A stretch of 64,000 nt of DNA from Tubulanus polymorphus (lineage: Eukaryota > Nemertea > Palaeonemertea > Tubulaniformes > Tubulanidae): contig NC_134027.1 of NCBI RefSeq assembly GCF_964204645.1, forward strand, positions 16,172,485-16,236,484, in the 5' to 3' direction. The translations under genes and the position numbers were made by a program. Within the stretch, counting starts at the first letter, position 1; every line of letters begins with the position of its first letter. The notes under the pieces were generated by a model. That model was given only the letters and a program-made list of their open reading frames with translations. It made no database searches and was not told where the DNA came from. Positions 45,001-54,879 of this stretch are shown here, piece by piece.

Positions 45001-48000
45001 CCAAGTTTAAAAGAAATCCATGTTATTTGATGTGTGTAGCGTGCTAAGGAGGCAAAAGCACATGGCTCACAATCGCACAGTGCATGCTGGGTAAAATAGA
45101 ATGTTAAAGGGTAACTGATACTTTTTTTTAAATTTCAAAATATGATGTATTCTATTGATCTATACACTCATCTTCAACCGTTCTGTTCCAAAATGTTTAG
45201 TTTATGCGCAATTTGTGATTTTGTTACAAGATTTTTGACCTCATTTGTTGTTTACATCGCTTCCTGTTCAGCGTCGGCTAAATTAGCAGGTGCGCGCTGC
45301 AACGTCATTAAAGGTAGCGCTGAGAAATATTGTCTATAGAAATGCATTGAATTTTGAGGAAACTGTGTGTATTTTCTGTTATATCTCAATGCCAGATTGT
45401 TTTACAGCTTTGAAACTGGCCTGGGAGGTAAAAGGATCTATTGTCTATTGCATAAAACTATTTCAAAGAATCAATGAGTAATTTGAATAGGCTAAATCGA
45501 TCAAATTGAAGATGCAGATTTCAATCCGATGCTATGAAGCTATTTAAGTACCCTATGCTAAGCTCTGAGCACTGTTACTGCTGCTCCATAGTTCATCTAT
45601 TAGTTCAGCACCACAAGCATACTATACAGTGTCTTATAAGCGATCACAGATTTCGATCTCGCTAAAGAATAAATAGATTCATATTCGTTTACTATTTACT
45701 ATTTTTCATAGTCATTTAAGACTAAGTAGTTTGAAAACTAACACTTCAAAACTCTACAAAAACTTTCAATAAATTTCTACAGCCTTTACAACAAATATTC
45801 AAAGGAATAATGTTTTTCAATTAAAGTTTCACGCTGCAATAGAGTTTTGATAGTTTACATCACAAATCTTTCTCGAACATTATTTCTAAGTTTTAAAATA
45901 GGATGGATGAGGAAATATTCTAATTTTGTGACCAAAGCCGCTACCAATACGAGGTACATTTCAAGAAAAGAATTGAAATTGTTCTTGCAGCTAATTCTGT
46001 CTAAGTTTCATCAGTTCTTAGATCTAACCATGATCTTACTTACTATCACTAAATGATAATACAAAACGATGATTTAAACATCCGTGTTCTTTGCTGTCTA
46101 CTAGAAAATGCCATGGATTGCTATTCAAATCCTATTTTTGCGCTTAGTTTGAACAGTTATGGTCCGCTCAACAGCTAATTATAATCATTGATATGTAGAC
46201 TTTCAAAATCATGAGGCATTTTGTCTCAATTCGAATGCCAAATAGGTATAAGTTGAATTGAATTGATAAGTTGAATAAGTTGAATTGCTCTAGCTTATTT
46301 CCTATTCATTTCTATAGATATCATTTCCGGGCCGTCACTTTAGTGACGTAGTTCTATTAATAGACACAGTACCACACGTTCAGCAGAAGCAATGTATACA
46401 CTGAACAGGTGCTCGAACATCAGTCATCAATTCTGACTAGATTGAAAAGATTTTTCCAATAATGAAATCACCTAGCCTTATTGTATACTATACTATATTG
46501 TTTAGTGTAAAAAGTTGAAAATCTTTAAAAAAGTGTCAGTTACCTTTTAACTTGCCCTACTAGGGTGACATAATTTGTGAAATTTTCAATACTGTATACA
46601 GCTATTTTATGAGTTTTATAGATATTTTCCTGTTTCAACAACACACAATGAATATGAATATGTATTTACAACTAACATATATTCAAATATTTGAACAAAA
46701 TATTTCATTTCTTTAATCGAATTATAACAGTAATACATTATTAACTCAGTCACTTTGTTCAGAAACCAGATCGAATAATTGATAGAACAGATTGAGTTCT
46801 TTAATAGCGGTGTTATAATAGCATAATGTTGGATGAATGACAATAGATCTATTGTGTGATCATGGGGAGAACAGATGGAGTGCGAGATATGGCTAATCTA
46901 ATCAAAATAGATCTTACCCCCGGTCTAGCCCTTACAAAAAATTCACATATGTTATGTGCGTGAATAACACACATTACATGTCTGAAAGGCGTGAAAGACA
47001 CCAAAAACTCATGCGATTCCAGCCATCACACGTGTGATCTGTGATGTGGTTGCCCATGACACGTGTGAATTACACATGATCACACGTGTCATTGTGAAAT
47101 ACATGTGTGATTCACACATGTGATTGGTTTAACAACACAGATCACATGTGTAACCGCTGGGATCACACATGTCATAGAATAACACATGTGATTAACATCA
47201 GTTATTCCAATCTGCAACACGTGTGATTGTACATGTGATCACTTCGGATATGAACCATTCAAATGTTGCTTCCAAATTCTGAACATCTGCATTTTTGTCA
47301 TCGATTCCATTTTGGAATAAAAATATTTCCATAACTGTACTCATTATTTCAACATTTTCAACACATACGTGGTTAGATTTTAGGCCACGCCAACAGTGCA
47401 AAAACCTAGTATGTCCATTCCTAGTTTGTATTTCCATTCGGCTAAATTAATAAAAATTAGGTCATTATATATTTTTGCATTCGCTGTTGAGTTAAAAAAA
47501 ACATAAACATTCAAAAAAGACTTCGAAAAATTATCAGGTATTTACGGGATTCGAGCCGTTCATGACAGCTAGCAAAGGAATGGGAATGAGCATGCAGGTA
47601 TGCATGGCGCCATTTGCAATTATTTCGAGGATGTTTTTAGCCCACTTGGGGCTTACGTCCCAGCTGGCTATTGCGTCGTCCGTCCGTTCGTCCGTAGACG
47701 GAATCCAGTTATTTTGTGAAGTTTTGAAGACGTTTTAAGGTAATGTCTTGATATTTGGTTTATACATGTATCTACCCTACACAGATCTTAAGCCCAAAAA
47801 CGGGCCCTGTCTGATTCAGGGTGGACTGGAAGCCATTGTTGTTTGCCAAAATCAGCACTTTTTACACATTTTCCAAGTTTTCGAGGGAAAATTTGAAGAC
47901 GCTTTGATCAATTACCTTGATCTTTCGTTTATATTTGAATCTACCAAGGGCCCATCAGCATAAGAAAAATTGGGTCGATCTGACTCAAGATGGCCGTCCT

Positions 48001-51000
48001 ATGACTTTTTTAGTGCCCTAAAATGTCAATTTTGGTCCGAATTCTAGGTCCTGTAGCTTCCTACTGGTTTGCCATTTCTCATTACAATTTGTGATGGGTA
48101 TTCTTTGGAAAGGGATGTTTTATACCTGAGACAGGTATTTTTGGTCAGCCAATTATGACGCAATTGGCGGCCATCTTGGTGTCATCAAGACTCATTCGTA
48201 GGTGGGAAAAAGTTTTTCCACGTTTAATTGATACCTAAGCATATTGTGTTACTATATTCAATTGGAAAGTTGTACCCCATAACGTGTTCTATGATTTTGG
48301 TGAGTTTCAAGGTCATTGGTTTTTGTATGTGGCCACCAGGATATTTTGTTACCACAATCAATTGCAAAGTTGAAGCTCATGACATCTTCCATGATTTTGG
48401 TGAGTTTTAAGGACATTAGTTATTGTATATGGTCACCAGGGGGCGTTGAATAGTAGAATAACTTAGTATTTCCTTATTAGATTGGTACCTAGGCATATTT
48501 TGTTACCACGATCAATAGCAAAGTTGTATTTCATGACATGTACTACGATTGTGGTGAGTTTTAAGGTCATTGGGTTTTGCATGGTCACCAGGGGGCGTTG
48601 AATAGTAGAATAACTTAGTATTTCCATATTAAATTGGTAACGAGGCATATTTTGTTATCACAATCAATTAAAAAATCATAGCTGCTGACATGTTCTATGA
48701 TTTTAGTGGGTTTCAAGGTCATTGGTTTTTGTATATGGTCACTAGGGGGTGTTATGTATTGAAATTGTTAAATTGTTGAGCATTTGAAACCACTTCCAAA
48801 GTGGGCATGGTGTCCGCCCTGGACCCCTAGTTGCTGTTTTTAGTCAATTTTCATGGTTAATTCCATAGTTCGAACAGTCTGGTGTTTGAATTCAAGCTCC
48901 AAGGCAAGTATTATTGTGTTTCATCAAATATTTATAGTCGACGATGATGATTGAATTTACTGTAATCGGTAAAATCTGTGGCGTGTGCTGAATCAATTAA
49001 ATCAAATTCATCCAAACTTTATTTGATGCATGGCAAAGTACAACATGTCCATGTCTAGCTTTTTCAAGTAGGCCTAGCTTACACCATGAACTCTTTTTAA
49101 ATCACAATCTGTCCAGTCATGAAAAGACCATTTATGAATGGAAAGGCTCAGTGAAAGTCAGATTGTGAAACTTAACCTAAACCTCAGTCAGATCCTATCT
49201 AATCTTTCCATTTATGTACAGGTGTAAACGTAAAACCAAGCACGAGGCATGTCGCCTCTCAGTTCCCCACGAAATCCAAGAGATGTGGAATAGGCTTATA
49301 TAGTTTTAATGCGGTAGCTGTCCAAAGTGATAGTGACATTGACGATGAAGACGTAGAATACGATTATGACGACCCAGATTATGTACCGGCGGAAGATGAG
49401 GATGAACAGTGTCAAGAAGATGAAAGGTATGTCGTATAGATATTAATTTGAGAAGTTCCTAGGCCTAACTTATTCATACTAAATATGAAATATTCTTATG
49501 TAGGTATACATGTACCCCTGGTGTCTAATTTCAGGGATGAATCGTAGCAACCTGGTGAGAAATTCTATATGATCTCCGAGAGTCAACTGATGTCGCTGTT
49601 CAAAATGTGCCCGCAATGTGTCACTGAAACAGAGCCCAAAATTAAAACATCAAATGGAACTGACATCTCTGTGCATCAGGAATGCCAATCTGGGTTTTTT
49701 GGTTTTAAGCGTGTCTGGCACAGCCAACCGAAAATAGCCAATGTGCCTGTGGGAAATATATCTCTCAGTGCTGCAATACTTTTTGCTGGATTGGCTCCAA
49801 TAAAGCCTTGCGTTTGTTTCAACATATGAATGTGCAGAGCATTTCATATGATACGTTGATGAAACATCAATCAAAGTACTTAATTCCAGCCGTGAATGAG
49901 GTGTTTACCAGAGAAAGTGAGGCTCTGTTGTCATCTTTGAAAGAAAAAGATTCCGATGGTATTGTTGCCCTTGGTGATGGTAGAGCTGACAGTCCTGGTA
50001 GGCCCATGCACTTTTTACGTTTGAAATTATCATAATTCAAATTAGCAATTTTCCATGCCAATTTACCTGATTTTCATCTAGGTCACACTGCCAAATATGG
50101 AACCTATACCATAATGGAAAAGAACTCGAACAAAATCATATCGGCAAAGCTTGTACAGGTGTGTAAAATATTGTAAATTAGTTCTTATAAAAATTACACA
50201 TTTCTCTTTTAATTTAACTTATAACATCGACTTCATTCTTTAGTCAAACGAAGTAACATCTAGTTCGGCCATGGAGAAGGAAGGGTTGATACGAGCTCTT
50301 GATGAACTGTCATCATTTGGTATCGTTGTCAAAGAACTGGTGACTGACAGACACGTTTCTATCCTGAAAATGATGAGAACTGATTATTCCAACATTAAAC
50401 ACAGTTTTGATGTTTGGCATCTTGAAAAAAGTAGGGTATCTGACTTTTGTTACAAATTTGTTTTCAAAATGATTGTTCAAACAATATTTCCTCACCTTTT
50501 TAGGTCTTGGAAAAAAGCTATTGGCTGTTGGTAATGAAAGAGGGTGTCAGCTCGTCTATGATTGGAAGCCTGCAATATCTAAACATCTGTATTGGTGTGC
50601 CACTAATGGTGGTGATGGAGAAAAATGAGGCTATCTGGGTGGCTCTTTCTAATCATATACAAGATATACACGTCCATGATAACCCCTATTGTCCTGCATG
50701 TCAACACGGAGAAATAGCAGAAAGAGAACATTTCACTAGCCGTAAGTTTAAGCTGTAACTGTTGTCATAACATGGCTATGTTGTTTTCTATTGTTGATCA
50801 TATTTTGACTCCTTTAACAGTTAATTGATGGACACTATATGTAATGGTAAATCTCATTGATGGACACTATGTTGTTGCTTTTGGCTTTACTTGTTACATG
50901 TATTTACACACTTCTAATCTATTTTCTCTCACTATAAGCTTATGTGTAATTCTGTGCAGGCACATTGATGCCATGAATCCTACAAAAAGCCTTTATTTAG

Positions 51001-54000
51001 GGGCTGGACTAGAGACTATATGGGTTGAAGGGGCTATATCTAAAATATCTATCACCAAAGTATCTTTTGCTCACATTCTCCTGGTTTATCCTACAGCACT
51101 TTTTTTTACATTTCGGTAAATTGCACTGTGGTTACACTGGTACATATATATACTATAATATTTATAAAAAGATATATATCATGAAGTATTAATCTTCATA
51201 TTCCATGTATAGATTCGAAGGCATATACCAGGCTGACTGATGTAGCATTCAAAACACATTTCAAGAATGATGTAAAATGTCTATCGCCGAACAGTGTAAC
51301 GTCTGGAGTTGAGTCTTTCCATTCACTCCTCAATCATCTAGCGCAAAAATGCTACCAATACATTTTAGTTATCATGGAATAACAGCTAGGTAGGAATTTG
51401 TTAGCATATCAGTTCGATTCCTAATAACAAGAATTGAGGATCTCTGCTGAAAAACAATGCGATTGTTATATTCAATTCTGTACATTTGCTTGATCTACAG
51501 GTATCTTATTGCTGTATTACATCACAATGAAAACGTCAACAGAAGACAGGCTGAGACCAAAGACGGGGAAGATAGATATAACGTTGTGTATCCCAAGTTC
51601 AAGAAAGGAAGTCATGCACTATGCAAAGTGTTTGAGCAAGCAACCTTTAGTAAGTTTCAAACATGGACTTTTAGAGTATACACGTACATGTACATGTATT
51701 TGTATCTTAAAATTGAATTTTTCTTTTTTCCAGACTACATTAAACCACTTATGGCCTGTGTCTTCGGGCGCCTTGCATCTGGGAGGAAATACTTGAGTGA
51801 TAGAACTAAACCACCACCTCTCTCAAGTTCAGCAAAAAAAAATCACAAAAGGTGAAGCTTTTAGATTGCATAAGACCAGAATGACCAGGTTCACGGAAGA
51901 CAAAGAGTAGATGACGGTTGAGTTCTCGGATGCTAGAACATAATTAATAATTTAAGAATATAACTTTCTTTCAACCGAATTGTTTTATTAGAAAATTTAA
52001 GTTACAAAATTTAATACTTGTATATACAAGTTTTAACAGTAATTAATTCAATGTTGGTAATTAAAATCCACGGTTTCATCAGGATAGGTTTCTCGAATTA
52101 TTTTGACCACACACGAAGGAAGAGGAACTCTTTTCTTTTTGCCAAGGATTCCATTAGCACTATTGTATAAAGCGACGATAACCTGTGTATCTGTACTTCC
52201 TGTAAATATTTCCAAAAATGGCGAAAATTAATTCATAGTTCCATGTTGTTTAACTAACGAAACTGAACATTTGAGCGAAAAATTGTTACAAAATATATGT
52301 GATCACATTAATTGAATAATAATATATGAAGCCTATATCTATTGAGACATAATCTATGGCTTTTTACTTACGCTATATTTGGCATGTCTGGTTCAATGTA
52401 GCCATCTGCCTTTAGGTACTGATACCCCATTTCAAGTGACCAAGGATCCAAGCATACAGAGTGGAACCCAGGATGCGCAAATATGCATCTTATATCGCTC
52501 CCACCCTCTTCTGCGACAAACTGTTCCATTTTTCCAAGCACTGGGTTTTTTTCTTGGCAGCAGTAACTCTCCTCAATCATTTCCATAGGAATGCAGTTCT
52601 GACACTGACACCTAGAGATAGAGAACTAATACATGTACAGAGCCATTAAATTTGAATTAGGCCTACTGGTAACTGAGAGCAGAAATATATCAATCTGATG
52701 TAGCCCTTACCAATCATTATTCCCTATCCTCTGAATTTCCTCCACACACTCCATAGCACCAATGTTATCTTCTCTCTGTTCTTTGCGAAGTGGTTCAAGG
52801 GCATATGGATCGAGAATTAGGCCTACTGGCCCATTATCACTTCCAAGGTCATCATCACTCCCTGAATCTGGTGATTTTTAAATAAATAAATCAGATATAG
52901 TCATATAGCTCCGTTTCGGTTTGAACTACATGATTGCTCGTATGTTTGAGTGAGTAAAGTTTGTTTACTTCAGTGGTAGCCTCAAAAGCAAGCAGTTAAA
53001 CTGTTCGCTATATCTACCGTACTGAACCCGGAAGTAAAATCAGCAAGTGAGCTTGCCGACAGAGGGAAGATAAATTAAAATCTTAGCATTAGTACAACTC
53101 AGATTGACTCTTGAGTGAGAGGGAACATGCTTCACAATAAAGGATATTAGAATACGTAAAAATACCTGCACCAGATGATGTATCGGCAGCAGAATCAGAC
53201 TCTAAATCCGAGTAGTCACTGTCGCTTAACGCATTGCTGGGTACTGCCATTTTGTTTATATAAACCTCTGACGTCATCAGGTCACGTGATACATTCGCGC
53301 ATTTTCAGTACTGTACATTGATTTTAGGCAATTTTATACGCGATAATTATTACTTTATAGATTTCTAAAAATAAAAACACGGACACATTCAACTACCAAA
53401 ATGTATTTATTTTCAATCTCCAAGACCTGTTAACTCAAATTCTAGAACTACTTTAATCACTTACAAATGAAAATGGAATTTTCCATTATTAATTTAGGGA
53501 GTAAGTACATACATTTCCTTGAGTAGTGATTTATGTATATAAAAAATGAAACGTATACTTTCAGCCGGAACAAATTACTGAAAAAGAGTCTGTTATGGTA
53601 GGTGTGACCAGATGATTGATATTAGGGATATTGATTTATTGGTTTATTGTTTGGAATTGTGTGCAATATTAAAAGGTTTTATAAATTTGTCTCATTCCAG
53701 ATCAATGTTTTGAAGTACAGATCAGGGGTTACCATGGTCGAAATTAGAAAGAAGATTGGACAAAACCTGAAACAGTATAAATCGATGAAGTAAATCTGTA
53801 AATATTTGAAAATAAAATTCCCATTAACATGTACACAAGTGAGTTATTACATTTGCTTGGTAATTTTGAAACTACATTTCGTTTTGCCATTATGTGGATC
53901 TCCTTTCAGGCAATGAGTTTTTAGGAAATTGTGAAGTTTGGATAAAACATCATGTCCAGAGAAAGAAGTGGTCAAATTTTGACCATTATGAATGTGTATT

Positions 54001-54879
54001 TATACCACTTCGTGAATAGTCGTGTGGAGCCTGAACAATGAGGATGACTGCAGATCACATGCGTTTTAAATCACACATGAATGTGTTATATGACATGTGT
54101 GATTCACATTCAGGGCTGTATCACACGTGTGATCTTTTAAATCACACGTGTGATAATGTCCCATTTTTACACATTTGAATCACACATGTTTTTTGTAAGG
54201 GAGAGCAGGGATGAGATGCTATTGCCATAAAATCTGTGGTATTCGATGACTTAAGTACCAGAATGTCAGCATTTGCGTGGCCCGAAGCATTTATAGGGGG
54301 ATTATGGGGTCTGGCCCAGAGAAAATATTAGAAATTAGAAGTGTTTTCCTTGCGTATAACGAATCCATAACAACCACCATATCTTTTCCATATTTCTAAT
54401 GTGGCACCTCCACATTCCATTGACAATCAGCATCTCAAGCAGTACATGTCAAGCCCCTGGATTGTTGTTTTTTAAATGTGCCGAAGACATGACTACTGTT
54501 GTCACATGCCTGCAATCAATTATATATATACTTGTATATTTTCGTATACAGAAATCTGCGGAATTCTCATCCCATCTACAGAGGGTGATATCACAAAATT
54601 TCTGCAGGGAATTCTCTTCCCATCTGGTGGGTGATATCAAAAGTTGATGTGTGCGATCCAACCAGTTAAGGATAATGGCTATGTTTTTCCAAGAAAATTC
54701 ATATGTAAGAAAAACGCTTATGGGTGACACAGCTGGAGAACTGTTACCTTTTCTTGCAGATCTTCTAATTGATTTTGATGTTCAGCCACTGCTAATTCAC
54801 GTTCAGCTGTTATCTGTACACTTTCTCTTAAAGCTTCTTCCAATTCTTCGATACGCTCTTCATTCTGCTTAATTATATT
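18043..54879 (-). CDS. ERC/ELKS/CAST family protein, C-terminal 188 residues, five exons
   Basis: Minus-strand exons at 54748-54879, 18858-19018, 18427-18571, 18223-18327 and 18043-18066 join in phase (567 nt including the stop). The product is a continuous coiled coil. It contains 'EALRESVQITAERE', 'KQEAILAAISEKDATLALLE' and 'TQNRVKLL', all closely matching vertebrate ERC1/2. It ends DDVGIWA; the GIWA tail is the known PDZ ligand by which ERC proteins bind RIM at presynaptic active zones. From AERE to the RRKQLEEV-type segment there are 58 residues, which I recall is also the spacing in human ERC1. So no exon appears to be missing across the 35,729-bp intron (19019-54747). The 5' exons lie beyond the right edge or were not found. 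The 24-nt terminal exon could be alternatively spliced. Confidence 0.92.
19019..19650. other. Start of the giant ERC intron; eroded repeat
   Basis: No gene is seen. About 19330-19450 ('CCCATCAATGG', 'GGTAAACCATTAGTAACCTACAGG', 'AGGCCAAAA') looks like a decayed piece of the CTAGGGG/AAGTGGGCT repeat found intact at 31.2, 34.7, 41.6 and 47.6 kb. Confidence 0.4.
19651..20105. mobile_element. Imperfect inverted-repeat element, about 455 bp (MITE-like)
   Basis: The left end 'AGCCTACATTG…GGAGACAACTAGT' is mirrored at the right by 'AACTAGTTTGCTCCAGT…GATGTATGCT'. 'CAGTTGC'-type words recur throughout. No coding capacity is visible, and target duplications are not clear. Confidence 0.5.
21640..22900. 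repeat. Internal repeat units of the long-TIR element
   Basis: A block running from 'GTGAAGCTGGCTACTTATTC' to 'CTAATCGAGACGTCTGAATT' occurs at about 21648-21775 and 21950-22075. A diverged copy is at about 22747-22885. GGGAACCGGGAACCGG tracts sit between them. They match the element's arms and the relics at 12.6-13.1 kb. Apparent reading frames across them reflect the repeats. Confidence 0.65.
23145..23408. mobile_element. MITE with GGGCCCGGTTT-type termini
   Basis: The left end CCCTGGGCCCGGTTTAGG pairs with the right end, whose complement reads CCAGGGTCGGGTTTCACG. The element is about 264 bp and non-coding. A partial copy of the left end lies at about 22548-22600. Harbinger-like MITEs have similar termini, but no target duplication was resolved. 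Confidence 0.55.
23870..24125. mobile_element. Short inverted-repeat element (GCCGTCGGAA)
   Basis: GAGCCGTCGGAAGG at about 23871 is mirrored by TTCCGACGGC ending near 24123. The interior includes a CCCTCCCCTAG block and 'GGGGCGGCTTTGGCCGCCCC', a strong hairpin. It is non-coding. Confidence 0.5.
24126..26473. other. Interior of the long-TIR element, no gene recognised
   Basis: Several short open frames exist, for example near 24.0-24.3 kb (-) and 25.1-25.8 kb (+). None has recognisable motifs or convincing splice context. A (TA)n microsatellite lies at about 26446-26466. Confidence 0.4.
27412..27680 (+). pseudogene. Reverse-transcriptase fragment, non-LTR type (unit 1)
   Basis: The plus strand encodes a 'VDFDKAFDKAQHQPLL' block, the conserved aspartate region of LINE-type reverse transcriptase. 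A small deletion, frameshifts and stops follow. The end of the block matches unit 2 up to 'ACAAATGACATACACAGTAA'. It is a dead fragment. Confidence 0.65.
27955..28660. repeat. TCGACA / TATCGCGATA-rich block with an inverted-repeat core
   Basis: The block is dense in TCGACA, ATCGCGAT and TCGTGA words. From about 28228 to 28655 it forms an inverted repeat. 'CGATAAAGGGCCTCGAG' at about 28259 is mirrored at about 28612, and 'ATGTCGACATATCGCGATAT' at about 28312 is mirrored near 28580. Outer ends read TACGGAAG and CTTCCGTA, as in a MITE about 430 bp long. Such CpG-rich sequence is unusual in this AT-rich neighbourhood. Confidence 0.6.
28858..29256. repeat. 31-bp minisatellite, array 1
   Basis: About 13 tandem units of the pattern GAATTGTCGCGGGCGA followed by TAAAACCAAAATAAT, with scattered substitutions and one disrupted unit near 29115. 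Because the unit lacks stops in several minus-strand frames, long repetitive frames appear there; they are not genes. Confidence 0.95.
29257..30565. repeat. Tail segment of composite unit 1
   Basis: This stretch is duplicated at 33540-34555 with minor differences. A sub-block of about 75 bp ('CTCGATAAACACTTCAAGC…CAGCGAACGCTTA') occurs twice in this unit, at about 29341 and 29620, and once in unit 2. No gene is recognised. Confidence 0.7.
30605..30895 (+). pseudogene. Reverse-transcriptase fragment, non-LTR type (unit 2)
   Basis: From GTG 30631 the frame encodes 'VDFNKAFDKAQHQPLL', then 'WLSSYLSERKLVTEINGTP'. After a frameshift it continues with a 'GVTQGSILS' block like the (G/S)VPQGSVLG motif and 'LFNVLTNDIHS'. 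This is the palm/fingers segment just before the catalytic YADD, which is missing. It is a dead fragment that confirms the origin of its partner at 27.4 kb. Confidence 0.75.
30955..31246. repeat. 31-bp minisatellite, array 2a
   Basis: About nine units of the same 31-bp pattern as array 1. The array is interrupted at its right end by the CTAGGGG element. Confidence 0.9.
31247..32561 (+). mobile_element. CTAGGGG…AGCCCGCTG element (family X), copy 1
   Basis: The insertion splits the minisatellite. The left end is CTAGGGGTCCAGGG; then come 3-4 tandem units containing 'TATTCAACGCCCCCTGGTGAC'. A conserved 3' half follows ('CACCTACGAATGAGTACTGATG', 'GACATTTTTGGGC', 'GACGGACGGACG'). The right end is AATAGCCCGCTGAAAAA. 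It is non-coding. Other copies are at 34.7, 41.6, 47.6 (inverted) and 55.2 kb. The 3' hairpin plus CTAA seen in some copies recalls Helitrons, but the 5' end does not fit. Confidence 0.65.
32562..33539. repeat. 31-bp minisatellite, array 2b
   Basis: About 31 units of the GAATTGTCGCGGGCGA-type repeat, including CGACAAAACC and CGATAAAACC variants. Several irregular units lie near 32960-33000 and 33360-33400. It is the right half of the array split by family X copy 1. Confidence 0.95.
34736..35668 (+). mobile_element. Family X element, copy 2
   Basis: It runs from ACTAGGGGCCCAGGGGCCC to 'CCCAAGTGGGCTAA' and is inserted in the left virus-like copy. The uninterrupted minus-strand copy near 40.87 kb passes directly from 'GGTTTTAATTTT' to 'AAAATTACTAATAAATG'. 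It is shorter than copy 1, with fewer internal units. Confidence 0.65.
35681..36262 (+). pseudogene. AT-rich virus-like element gene A, frameshifted
   Basis: A 95-residue frame from ATG 35681 to TAA 35968 begins MNEQILNFKDFDLHELEKYF. Just after the stop, homologous reading continues in another frame and includes 'RYCPF', 'FIPDIPNEKSFKDVGIQC' and, after another stop near 36144, a Cys/His stretch 'LCNCGKYYTR'. The minus-strand partner at 40.38-40.85 kb has the same parts with its own breaks, so both are decayed. The function is unknown. The low GC content matches the 60.5-64 kb polymerase gene and contrasts with the flanking repeats. Confidence 0.55.
36346..36440 (+). CDS. AT-rich virus-like element gene B, small membrane protein
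   Basis: A 30-residue frame starting MNENGFIPTGKSDLKHY is followed by a hydrophobic helix (LVAGGLILAALYF) and a stop. A matching but altered sequence is on the minus strand near 40.2-40.3 kb. Short single-helix proteins are common in virus-like elements. Further residues after the stop suggest a longer ancestral frame. The function is unknown. Confidence 0.4.
36530..38176 (-). mobile_element. 1.65-kb CAAGAGGCCC repeat with tRNA-like module, copy 1
   Basis: It starts CAAGAGGCCCATGGGCC and ends about ACCAATGC. TAATAA flanks both sides (36524-36529 and 38177-38182), a candidate 6-bp target duplication. On the minus strand 37161-37250 reads like a tRNA: A box GGTAGCTCAGTGAG and B box GGGTTCGAGTCC. 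Its first 1.08 kb recurs at 59447. It interrupts the left virus-like copy between genes B and C. Open frames here (36.9-37.3 kb) are not supported as genes. Confidence 0.65.
38225..38456 (+). pseudogene. AT-rich virus-like element gene C, 3' end replaced
   Basis: The frame starts MSENILNLLHLIYRNQKDI and has a membrane helix (KLIIIVSGMVSVSIYSL). It continues with a polar region containing 'CCEICNQKVC'. At 38457 the reading enters the CAAGAGCCCC repeat, so the following residues to 38680 are not native. The minus-strand homolog at 39.83-40.08 kb has a stop in the Cys motif. It is probably a small membrane protein of a virus-like element. The function is unknown. Confidence 0.45.
38457..39050 (+). 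repeat. CAAGAGCCCC repeat (family Y), copy 1
   Basis: It starts CAAGAGCCCCAGG and includes 'GGTCAGCCTGTCAG' and 'ACATGGCTAATTAGCATATC'. It ends near 'GATACCGCGGGTTCACATGAAC'. The same blocks occur at 41.455-41.59 and 42.43-42.83 kb, where a family X element separates them. It is non-coding. Confidence 0.65.
39160..41194 (-). mobile_element. AT-rich virus-like element, right (inverted) copy
   Basis: Read on the minus strand, it starts at the 145-bp imperfect palindrome 41050-41194 (AGTAATAGGG at both ends). An AT-rich leader of CGAGTAA-type repeats follows, then homologs of genes A (about 40850-40380), B (near 40250) and C (40080-39830), and then 0.65 kb of AT-rich DNA. Order and sequence match the scattered left copy at 20.7-38.5 kb. 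The two copies face each other, so they form a long-range inverted repeat. It is a decayed fragment, not a full element. Confidence 0.65.
40380..40849 (-). pseudogene. AT-rich virus-like element gene A, inverted copy, broken
   Basis: The frame starts MNEQILNFKDIDLHEFEKYF at 40849. It lacks a segment of about 17 residues that the plus-strand copy has, then shifts frame near 40545. The reading '…PNEKSFKDVGIQCNLDNKID' with the 'NCGKYYTR' tail follows in the other frame to about 40380. Function unknown. Confidence 0.5.
41455..42830 (+). mobile_element. Family Y repeat split by a family X element
   Basis: 41455-41590 is the start of repeat Y (CAAGAGCCCCAAGGGGCAC). About 41590-42422 is a family X body with two 'TTCAACGCCCC…TGGTGGCCAT' units. 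42530-42830 is the end of Y ('ATGGCTAATTAGCATATC', 'GATACCGCGGGTTCGCGTGAAC'). It shows that X inserts into Y. Confidence 0.55.
42831..43620. other. No gene seen
   Basis: AT-rich sequence without recognised repeats or coding evidence. Confidence 0.5.
43640..44760. repeat. Interspersed repeat shared with 56.35-56.76 kb, split by a TIR element
   Basis: 'AAGCGGTTTACCTTTGCGATA' to 'GGCAATATTTTC' at 43641-43860, then '…AATGCTCTATCC…CAAATACTCATCAGA' at 44606-44700, match the continuous copy at about 56360-56740. The 733-bp element at 43865-44597 lies in the gap. Confidence 0.6.
43865..44597. mobile_element. 733-bp DNA element with CGCGTTCACACGACGA inverted termini
   Basis: CGCGTTCACACGACGA at the left is mirrored by TCGTCGTGTGAACGCG at the right. 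Subterminal 'AGACCGGTCTA'-type words recur inside, especially 44370-44580. It is non-coding. The insertion is supported by the uninterrupted copy near 56.6 kb. The superfamily is not determined. Confidence 0.7.
44715..45060. repeat. Diverged tandem repeat, about 145-bp unit
   Basis: Three units share 'ATGTTATTTGATGTRTGTAG' and 'GGTTTCATCCA.GGGCT…CCCATTACACA', centred near 44735, 44880 and 45025. Confidence 0.5.
45108..46546. mobile_element. TTAA-flanked DNA element, 1.44 kb, non-autonomous
   Basis: AGGGTAACTGATACTTTTTTTTA at the left is mirrored by AAAAAAGTGTCAGTTACCT at the right. TTAA directly abuts both ends (45104-45107 and 46547-46550). TTAA target duplication is characteristic of piggyBac and Kolobok superfamilies. 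No transposase frame is recognisable inside. The short frames at 45.1-46.1 kb have no family motifs. Confidence 0.75.
46955..47245. repeat. Left subterminal CACACGTGTGAT palindrome cluster
   Basis: At least ten copies of CACAYGTGTGAT/ATCACACRTGTG occur in both orientations. The matching cluster is at 54055-54190. Such arrays usually bind the cognate transposase. Confidence 0.7.
47636..48831 (-). mobile_element. Family X element, copy 4 (inverted, complete)
   Basis: Read on the minus strand it begins ACTAGGGGTCCAGGGCGGAC and ends 'GTAAGCCCCAAGTGGGCTAA'. It includes tandem 'GTTGAATAGTAGAATAACTT' units and GGACGGACGA near its end. It is the fullest copy here (about 1.2 kb), non-coding, and nested in the 7.3-kb transposon. 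Confidence 0.65.
49222..51855 (+). pseudogene. DDE-type transposase of the 7.3-kb element, eight exons, lightly broken
   Basis: Exons at 49222-49426, 49535-49997, 50082-50158, 50244-50430, 50504-50741, 51213-51389, 51501-51649 and 51734-51855 have GT-AG borders and consistent phases (1618 nt). Recognisable blocks are 'DDPDYVP', 'GDGRADSP' joined by splicing to 'GHTAKYGTY', 'VTDRHVSILK', 'DVWHLEKS', 'CQHGE', 'SGVESFHSLLN' and 'VLHHNENVNR'. They match a transposase-like family widespread in molluscs and fish. I take GDGR, TDRH and VESFH as D, D and E. Breaks are a TAG at 49545-49547 and single-base shifts in or beside A-runs at about 49803, 50623 and 51345-51349. The N-terminal exon, a THAP domain in some relatives, was not found. 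An ISL3-like (IS3EU) class is possible but unproven. Confidence 0.75.
52048..53277 (-). CDS. P2X7-ballast-domain-like zinc protein, four exons, intact
   Basis: Minus-strand exons at 53166-53277, 52711-52867, 52372-52611 and 52048-52195 splice in phase to 218 residues plus stop. The N-terminus is acidic and Ser/Asp-rich. The rest carries 'WCQCQNC', 'SYCCQEKNPV', 'CIFAHPGFHSVCLDPW' and 'PLPSCVVKIIRETYP'. These match the Cys-rich cytoplasmic 'ballast' domain of P2X7 receptors, which also occurs outside P2X7 in invertebrates. There is no membrane segment, so it is not a channel. The AG acceptor after GAAG is needed to keep phase in the last exon. A second ATG at 53250 is an alternative start. Its stop codon lies 193 bp from the convergent transposase stop, inside the same inverted repeats. 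A role in transposition is inference. Confidence 0.8.
53266..53290 (-). promoter_or_regulatory. CRE and E-box at the P2X7-like gene start
   Basis: TGACGTCA (53269-53276) and CACGTG (53283-53288) lie 10 bp apart, overlapping the first ATG and about 20-40 bp upstream of the second. They fit a compact promoter and favour the ATG at 53248-53250 as the start. No TATA box is clear. Confidence 0.35.
54055..54190. repeat. Right subterminal CACACGTGTGAT palindrome cluster
   Basis: About six copies of TCACACGTGTGA-like palindromes lie next to the right inverted terminus of the 7.3-kb element, the counterpart of the left cluster. Confidence 0.7.

Follow-up and report, generated by a model that had tools for sequence, protein, structure and literature searches.

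Two convergent genes, one of them with a P2X7 ballast domain, sit in what is very probably a Kolobok-type transposon nested within a gene-free transposon of Tubulanus polymorphus

The window, by which we mean the whole 64,000-nt stretch of Tubulanus polymorphus DNA that was analyzed (C3:16172485-16236484), was compared with the 267.8 Mb genome. Within it, the interval 46929-54201 contains 13-bp inverted ends, subterminal palindromes and two convergent genes, all of which are present in the sequence (Table 1). A preliminary description of this DNA had reported perfect 13-bp inverted termini, matching subterminal clusters at both ends and two spliced convergent genes inside, and in each of these respects it was accurate. 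The terminus CCCTTACAAAAAA lies at 46929-46941 (+) and 54189-54201 (-), its sole matches in the window at ≤1 mismatch. Sites of the TCACACGTGTGA type, at the same tolerance, number six, with four on the left (47026, 47057, 47080, and 47112) and two on the right (54121 and 54142), and none was found elsewhere in the window outside 46929-54201. The genes match the Pfam families PF20700 (+) and PF20478 (-).

Table 1. Features of the interval 46929-54201, in window coordinates, and the evidence for each (TIR, terminal inverted repeat; TSD, target site duplication).
Feature	Position	Strand	Evidence
Outer (host) non-autonomous transposon, left arm: 13-bp TIR CCCTTACAAAAAA and subterminal TCACACGTGTGA-type palindromes	46929..47632	+	Alignment to outer-element loci; TSD table
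Separate interspersed repeat of 152-nt units, inserted in outer element	47633..48829		Outer loci without it; copies elsewhere
Outer transposon, middle part	48830..49125	+	Matches L012 (95.3%) and L021 (95.6%) as far as 49125
Left junction: inner left end and 88-94 bp of outer element missing	49126..49131		Comparison with L021 and L012
Inner Kolobok-type element, left-truncated, with both genes aboard	49131..53452		Match to L054 at 93.9%, 4,364 bp aligned
Predicted spliced gene for a Kolobok-type DDE transposase, without its 5' end and with a broken frame near 49,829	49203..51855	+	PF20700; collinear with young family
Spliced KolX-type gene with P2X7 ballast (P2RX7_C) domain, about 211 aa, four predicted exons	52048..53250	-	PF20478, 32.5 bits
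TCACGTGACCTGATGACGTC motif upstream of KolX	53270..53289	-	Similar motif near left ends of relatives, upstream of transposase
Inner element right TIR, AGTAGTTCTAGAAT in inward direction	53439..53452	-	Identical in L054 and L077; L053 differs by one mismatch
TTAA target site	53453..53456		Common to window and empty copy L012 (TTAATCACTTAC)
Outer transposon, right arm: subterminal palindromes and 13-bp TIR	53457..54201	+	Parts of arm at at least 39 places in genome

Genome-wide, CCCTTACAAAAAA has 55 exact copies (23 forward, 32 reverse) compared with 36 for the backwards control (18 and 18), and these copies form 13 facing pairs, the window pair included. A 2-bp duplication flanks 11 of the 13 pairs, all but L014 and L015, against an expectation of 7.4% per pair; in the window the duplicated bases are AG. 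Taken together, the excess over the control, the facing pairs and the duplications place these ends beyond chance. The 12 other facing pairs (L009-L020) enclose 1,152-3,241 bp and were fetched along with two loci with unpaired ends (L021 and L022). All 14 loci align in whole or in part to 46929-47632, 48830-49116/49125, and 53453/53455-54201 of the window, with the left arm aligning at full length in 12 of them and partially in L013 and L014, and none aligns to 49126-53452 at E ≤ 1e-5. Among the 12 other copies no stop-free frame exceeds 83 aa, and in this respect, as in its 13-bp TIR and repeated subterminal palindromes, the outer element resembles non-autonomous DNA transposons with short TIRs and a 2-bp TSD. 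Twelve of the 14 loci also pass directly from the equivalent of 47632 to that of 48830, skipping the 152-nt-unit repeat; the exceptions are L013, which has a reverse-orientation copy of the repeat nearby, and L014, where the stretch is absent. Further copies of this repeat were found in L012, L013, L019, and L053.

The preliminary description had gone on to unite the termini and both genes into one two-gene transposon, proposing that the transposase and ballast genes be sought together between the same CCCTTAC termini elsewhere and that termini consistently lacking a gene would speak against it. This is what was found, with the genes in 0 of the 12 other facing pairs and with relatives of the genes elsewhere between TTAA-flanked ends. 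Examination of the right arm (53470-54201) gave at least 141 genome matches, which were collapsed by hand to at least 39 places; one of these, the window, has a ballast-gene match within 10 kb, as opposed to 0 of the 38 others among the matches listed. Likewise, only 2 of the 55 exact CCCTTACAAAAAA termini have a ballast-gene match within 10 kb, and both are those of the window. As other copies of these termini occur without the genes, there is no support for a CCCTTAC-ended two-gene transposon.

The junctions between the two elements were resolved by comparison with empty outer copies. On the right, the inner element of the window ends in ...ATTCTAGAACTACT followed by TTAA; the empty copy L012 has ...GAATTAATCACTTACAAATG where the window has ...CTACTTTAATCACTTACAAATG, and the junction falls exactly at TTAA because L012 reads through with TTAATCACTTAC at the point where the window enters the inner element. 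L012 is thus an empty site for the inner element, an outer copy that reads through with TTAA and without genes. The target position carries TTAA in one of the five empty copies compared (L012), ATAA in L021, and TGAA in L009, L017, and L018, with L012 and L021 being the copies nearest to the window in the outer middle part (95%). On the left, outer-element sequence gives way to inner sequence at about 49125 of the window, with 94 bp (relative to L012) or 88 bp (relative to L021) of outer sequence missing. A search for a TTAA-TIR on the left side of the window's inner copy found none, TTAA surviving on the right only. One deletion probably removed both the inner left end and about 90 bp of outer sequence, and we infer the left end of the window copy from its relatives.

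These junctions bear on the possibility that the CCCTTACAAAAAA elements are an autonomous two-gene family of which the 2-kb copies are internal-deletion derivatives. Autonomous elements often give rise to non-autonomous ones, and the window shares its ends and arms with the short copies; however, the short copies retain the very base pairs that are missing at the window junction and are therefore not derived from the window form by simple deletion. In addition, the gene part occurs elsewhere without CCCTTACAAAAAA ends, between TTAA-flanked ends of its own, no second CCCTTAC-bounded two-gene copy exists among the 12 other facing pairs, and the 38 other right-arm places listed are free of ballast-gene matches, all of which makes this derivation very unlikely.

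The relatives of the inner element are found in other surroundings. The locus L054 (C2:17284500-17293500) matches window 49131-53456 (Table 1), and L053 matches 52040-53456 at 93.8%; both matches stop after ...ACTACTTTAA (also given as ...CTACTTTAA). Neither locus has CCCTTAC ends within its 9 kb, and the flanks of L054 differ from those of the window. In an attempted empty-site reconstruction, repeated parts of the L054 flanks matched many places in the genome. Position 49131 was first suspected as the left end of the inner element because the matches of the window and L054 both begin there, but was rejected when a TTAA-TIR pattern search placed the L054 left end 7.5 kb beyond that point. The window and L054 (at L054:2694) nevertheless start matching at the same base, although in neither is it the end of the element, and this counts against the nested reading.

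A genome search with the end pattern TTAAAGTAGTTCTAGAA, allowing ≤2 mismatches, returned 103 matches compared with 425 for the backwards control (the latter not split by mismatch), so that the bare count is uninformative and the case for these ends rests on facing pairs around genes. Ten matches were exact and six had one mismatch. Three facing pairs, C2:11413521/11434062 (right end with one mismatch), C2:17279638/17291493, and C9:7790810/7797840, bracket copies with both genes, the four other exact matches are single, and the window is represented by its right end only. All three of these other gene-bearing copies with a window-type right end have TTAA on both sides, as is typical of Kolobok. 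They span 20.6, 11.9, and 7.0 kb, respectively, and further insertions must therefore be assumed in the first two. The right TIR AGTAGTTCTAGAAT is identical in L054 and L077, has one mismatch in L053, and is present as facing left ends in L079, L080, and L081; these left ends are identical over their first 18 bp including TTAA, L080 and L081 are similar further in, and the flanks differ. The C9 copy is only 68-71% alike in the alignable gene parts, yet its 18-bp right end matches exactly. The termini read AGTAG...CTACT, in agreement with the 5'-RR...YY-3' form of Kolobok. For two diverged relatives with both genes, L055 and L078, no TTAA-TIR pairs were found.

Further inside, CACGTGA occurs about 150-170 bp from 6 of the 7 aligned ends (not L080), and it is followed by GATGACGT, exact or one base off, in 5 ends examined. 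A CACGTGA..GATGACGT-like motif is present inside both ends of this inner Kolobok family, upstream of both genes (53270-53289 in the window; L079, L081, L077, L054, and L053).

The + strand gene matches the Mutator-like transposase family PF20700 (E 2.3e-6; 27.2 bits against a Pfam cut-off of 26.5) and, more weakly, PF01866 (E 0.0063, far under its cut-off). By-eye reading of its product gives the motifs GDGR ... TDRH ... DVWH ... CPAC ... VESFHSL in this order, and the window and L054 transposases are collinear with the transposase of a young TTAA-ended family (see below) in 4 of 4 stretches. According to PMC9587614, Kolobok elements are characterized by TTAA duplications and RR/YY termini together with a C/DxxH signature, and nearly all of them have a zinc finger ahead of the last E; the predicted protein carries both a C/DxxH signature and putative zinc-finger residues ahead of its last E. 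TTAA targeting is also common to piggyBac, of which a few families have a KolX-like protein (PMC9587614), and the inner element might accordingly be of that or another TTAA-targeting kind. Its AG...CT termini, the DxxH motif followed by a cysteine pair ahead of the last E, and a Pfam result that is Mutator-like, with no piggyBac family up to E = 1, all conform to Kolobok instead, and we give next to no credence to this alternative. The frame near 49,829 is broken in the window and open in L054 and L059, and with its left end also absent the window copy is predicted to be inactive.

The - strand gene matches P2RX7_C (PF20478; E 1e-7; 32.5 bits against a cut-off of 23.5). This is the sole domain found in the 211-aa model, from which the P2X channel domain is absent, so that the gene does not qualify as a P2X7 receptor. 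Of 80 candidates in a protein search with the window KolX, a single one was a relative at E ≤ 1e-3, namely a 206-aa protein with PF20478 from the sea urchin Diadema antillarum. Seven cysteines (C82, C84, C98, C99, C123, C134, and C191 in window numbering) are invariant across seven KolX-type sequences. The window protein matches solved P2X7 chains weakly, with E 0.13, and unrelated chains rank above them (0.056 and 0.12), while the KolX of the young family matches P2X7 at E 1.2e-5 and PF20478 at 2.4e-14. The window KolX, as spliced, lacks the RHxAYR motif kept by the other six proteins compared. Residues R546 and H547 of the ballast region are among the nucleotide-binding residues of P2X7, as described in PMC7016195, and would correspond to the RH of this motif; nucleotide binding by the window protein is therefore not expected. 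A separate KolX gene with a P2X7 ballast domain is a mark of the Kol0 lineage, and the inner element, as far as its predicted genes indicate, possesses one.

Both genes could also be host genes that stay at a fixed place amid transposon pieces, one a domesticated transposase and the other a P2X7-like gene. Vertebrate P2X7 and nanor are host genes of this kind (PMC7016195; PMC9587614), and the reported linkage of ballast-type genes to two markers across invertebrates (PMC7016195) speaks for some fixed host copies. For the window pair, however, such an origin is highly improbable, given that the genome has the pair at three other places, each time with other flanks and between TTAA-flanked ends, and that the transposase frame is broken here and open at the same position in L054 and L059.

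The pairing of the two genes extends beyond the window type. The transposase exon 51185-51382 has 10 genome matches, 7 of which have a ballast match within 5 kb (two on C5 share one); an eighth belongs to the copy at C2:11413521-11434078, 13.6 kb from its ballast match, and the remaining two, C4:14280273 and C11:6716507, have no ballast match within 15 kb. A ballast search of the genome gave at least 54 matches, collapsed by hand to at least 42 places. Eleven of these places form one family, 98.7-99.8% alike over aligned stretches of 1.2-3.4 kb, with ends of the form TTAA, AGGGTAACTGACAC...GTGTCAGTTACCCT, TTAA. All 11 members end in ...GTGTCAGTTACCCT followed by TTAA, although L035 and L043 share flanks, and 10 of them are enclosed by exact ends that face each other over 4.4-8.3 kb; for C2:17154861 only the right end was found. 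The complete copy C1:14225017-14229964 (L036 and L056) contains a transposase and, in convergent orientation, a ballast frame of 201 aa. With ballast genes between TTAA ends in two families, the genome gives independent support to the published Kolobok origin of the P2X7 ballast tail (PMC9587614).

We conclude that the single-transposon reading of 46929-54201 is wrong, and that a structure which had been well seen was wrongly joined and is two nested transposons. In the reading to which we assign a probability of roughly 0.94, a Kolobok-type transposon with both genes lies inside a gene-free transposon of about 2 kb bounded by CCCTTACAAAAAA, with the inner right end at TTAA and the left end missing. 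Judged from its sequence features, the inner element agrees with the KolX-bearing type of Kolobok transposon. KolX of the Kol0 lineage was reported by Kojima and Bao (2022; PMC9587614) to resemble residues 476-595 of P2X7, the ballast fold, and these authors conclude that a P2X4-like gene and KolX fused to give rise to P2X7. The inner element is like these Kol0 systems in its TTAA target, AG/CT termini, DxxH DDE-type transposase and separate ballast-domain KolX gene, and unlike them, as described there, in that the window copy is left-truncated, lies inside another transposon, has AGTAGTTCTAGAAT ends and encodes a KolX without RHxAYR. With the Xenopus XKol/T2-MITE Kolobok elements (PMC6004289), of which ten full-length copies have AG ends and TTAA with the exception of one right side, it has TTAA duplications and AG-starting TIRs in common, the termini being otherwise different; KolX has 0 occurrences in the main text of that paper. 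The ballast domain had been described across Metazoa by Rump et al. (2020; PMC7016195), and the Cys-rich PF20478 domain is common to the P2X7 tail, the invertebrate ZCD/nanor-like proteins treated there and the present gene, which has no channel part and sits in a mobile element. According to PMC9587614 the transposon link was left unmentioned in an earlier survey, and 'transpos' has 0 occurrences in the main text of PMC7016195.

The pairing of a transposase with a P2X7-tail-like protein is therefore already published. The preliminary description further proposed that the ballast protein serves a transposon family as an accessory and that the P2X7-like genes of invertebrates are explained in this way, which stands as a broad idea: the ballast protein as a partner is right but known (PMC9587614), and the transposon in question is a Kolobok (TTAA) rather than a CCCTTAC element. 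The present analysis corrects an attractive but wrong element model and ties the window to the published idea that the P2X7 ballast tail comes from a Kolobok protein.

By analogy with its family, an intact inner copy would move by cut-and-paste at TTAA, with the transposase acting on the AGTAGTTCTAGAA ends, and KolX, transcribed inward from the opposite end, would serve as an accessory factor. At a guess, KolX would most likely be a zinc-stabilized protein that acts as this accessory by binding the ends or the transposase. A more ambitious proposal, which we regard as doubtful, is that KolX is a working part of the Kolobok machine, recruited to the CACGTGA..GATGACGT motif 150-170 bp inside both ends and co-regulating genes and ends, that the P2X7 tail is a domesticated transposon-end or transposase-control domain, and that the 98.7-99.8%-identical family is still mobile. 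As a ballast-bearing, TTAA-ended Kolobok, the young family is good material for probing the job of KolX.

Its 20-bp end with TTAA has 137 exact occurrences in the genome as opposed to 0 in the control. Many of the listed pairs of these ends are about 1.44 kb apart and resemble non-autonomous copies. Separately, positions 45104-46550 of the window, 378 bp to the left of the outer element, form a 1,447-bp segment whose TTAA-flanked ends are those of the second Kolobok family (TTAAAGGGTAACTGAT ... GTCAGTTACCTTTTAA).
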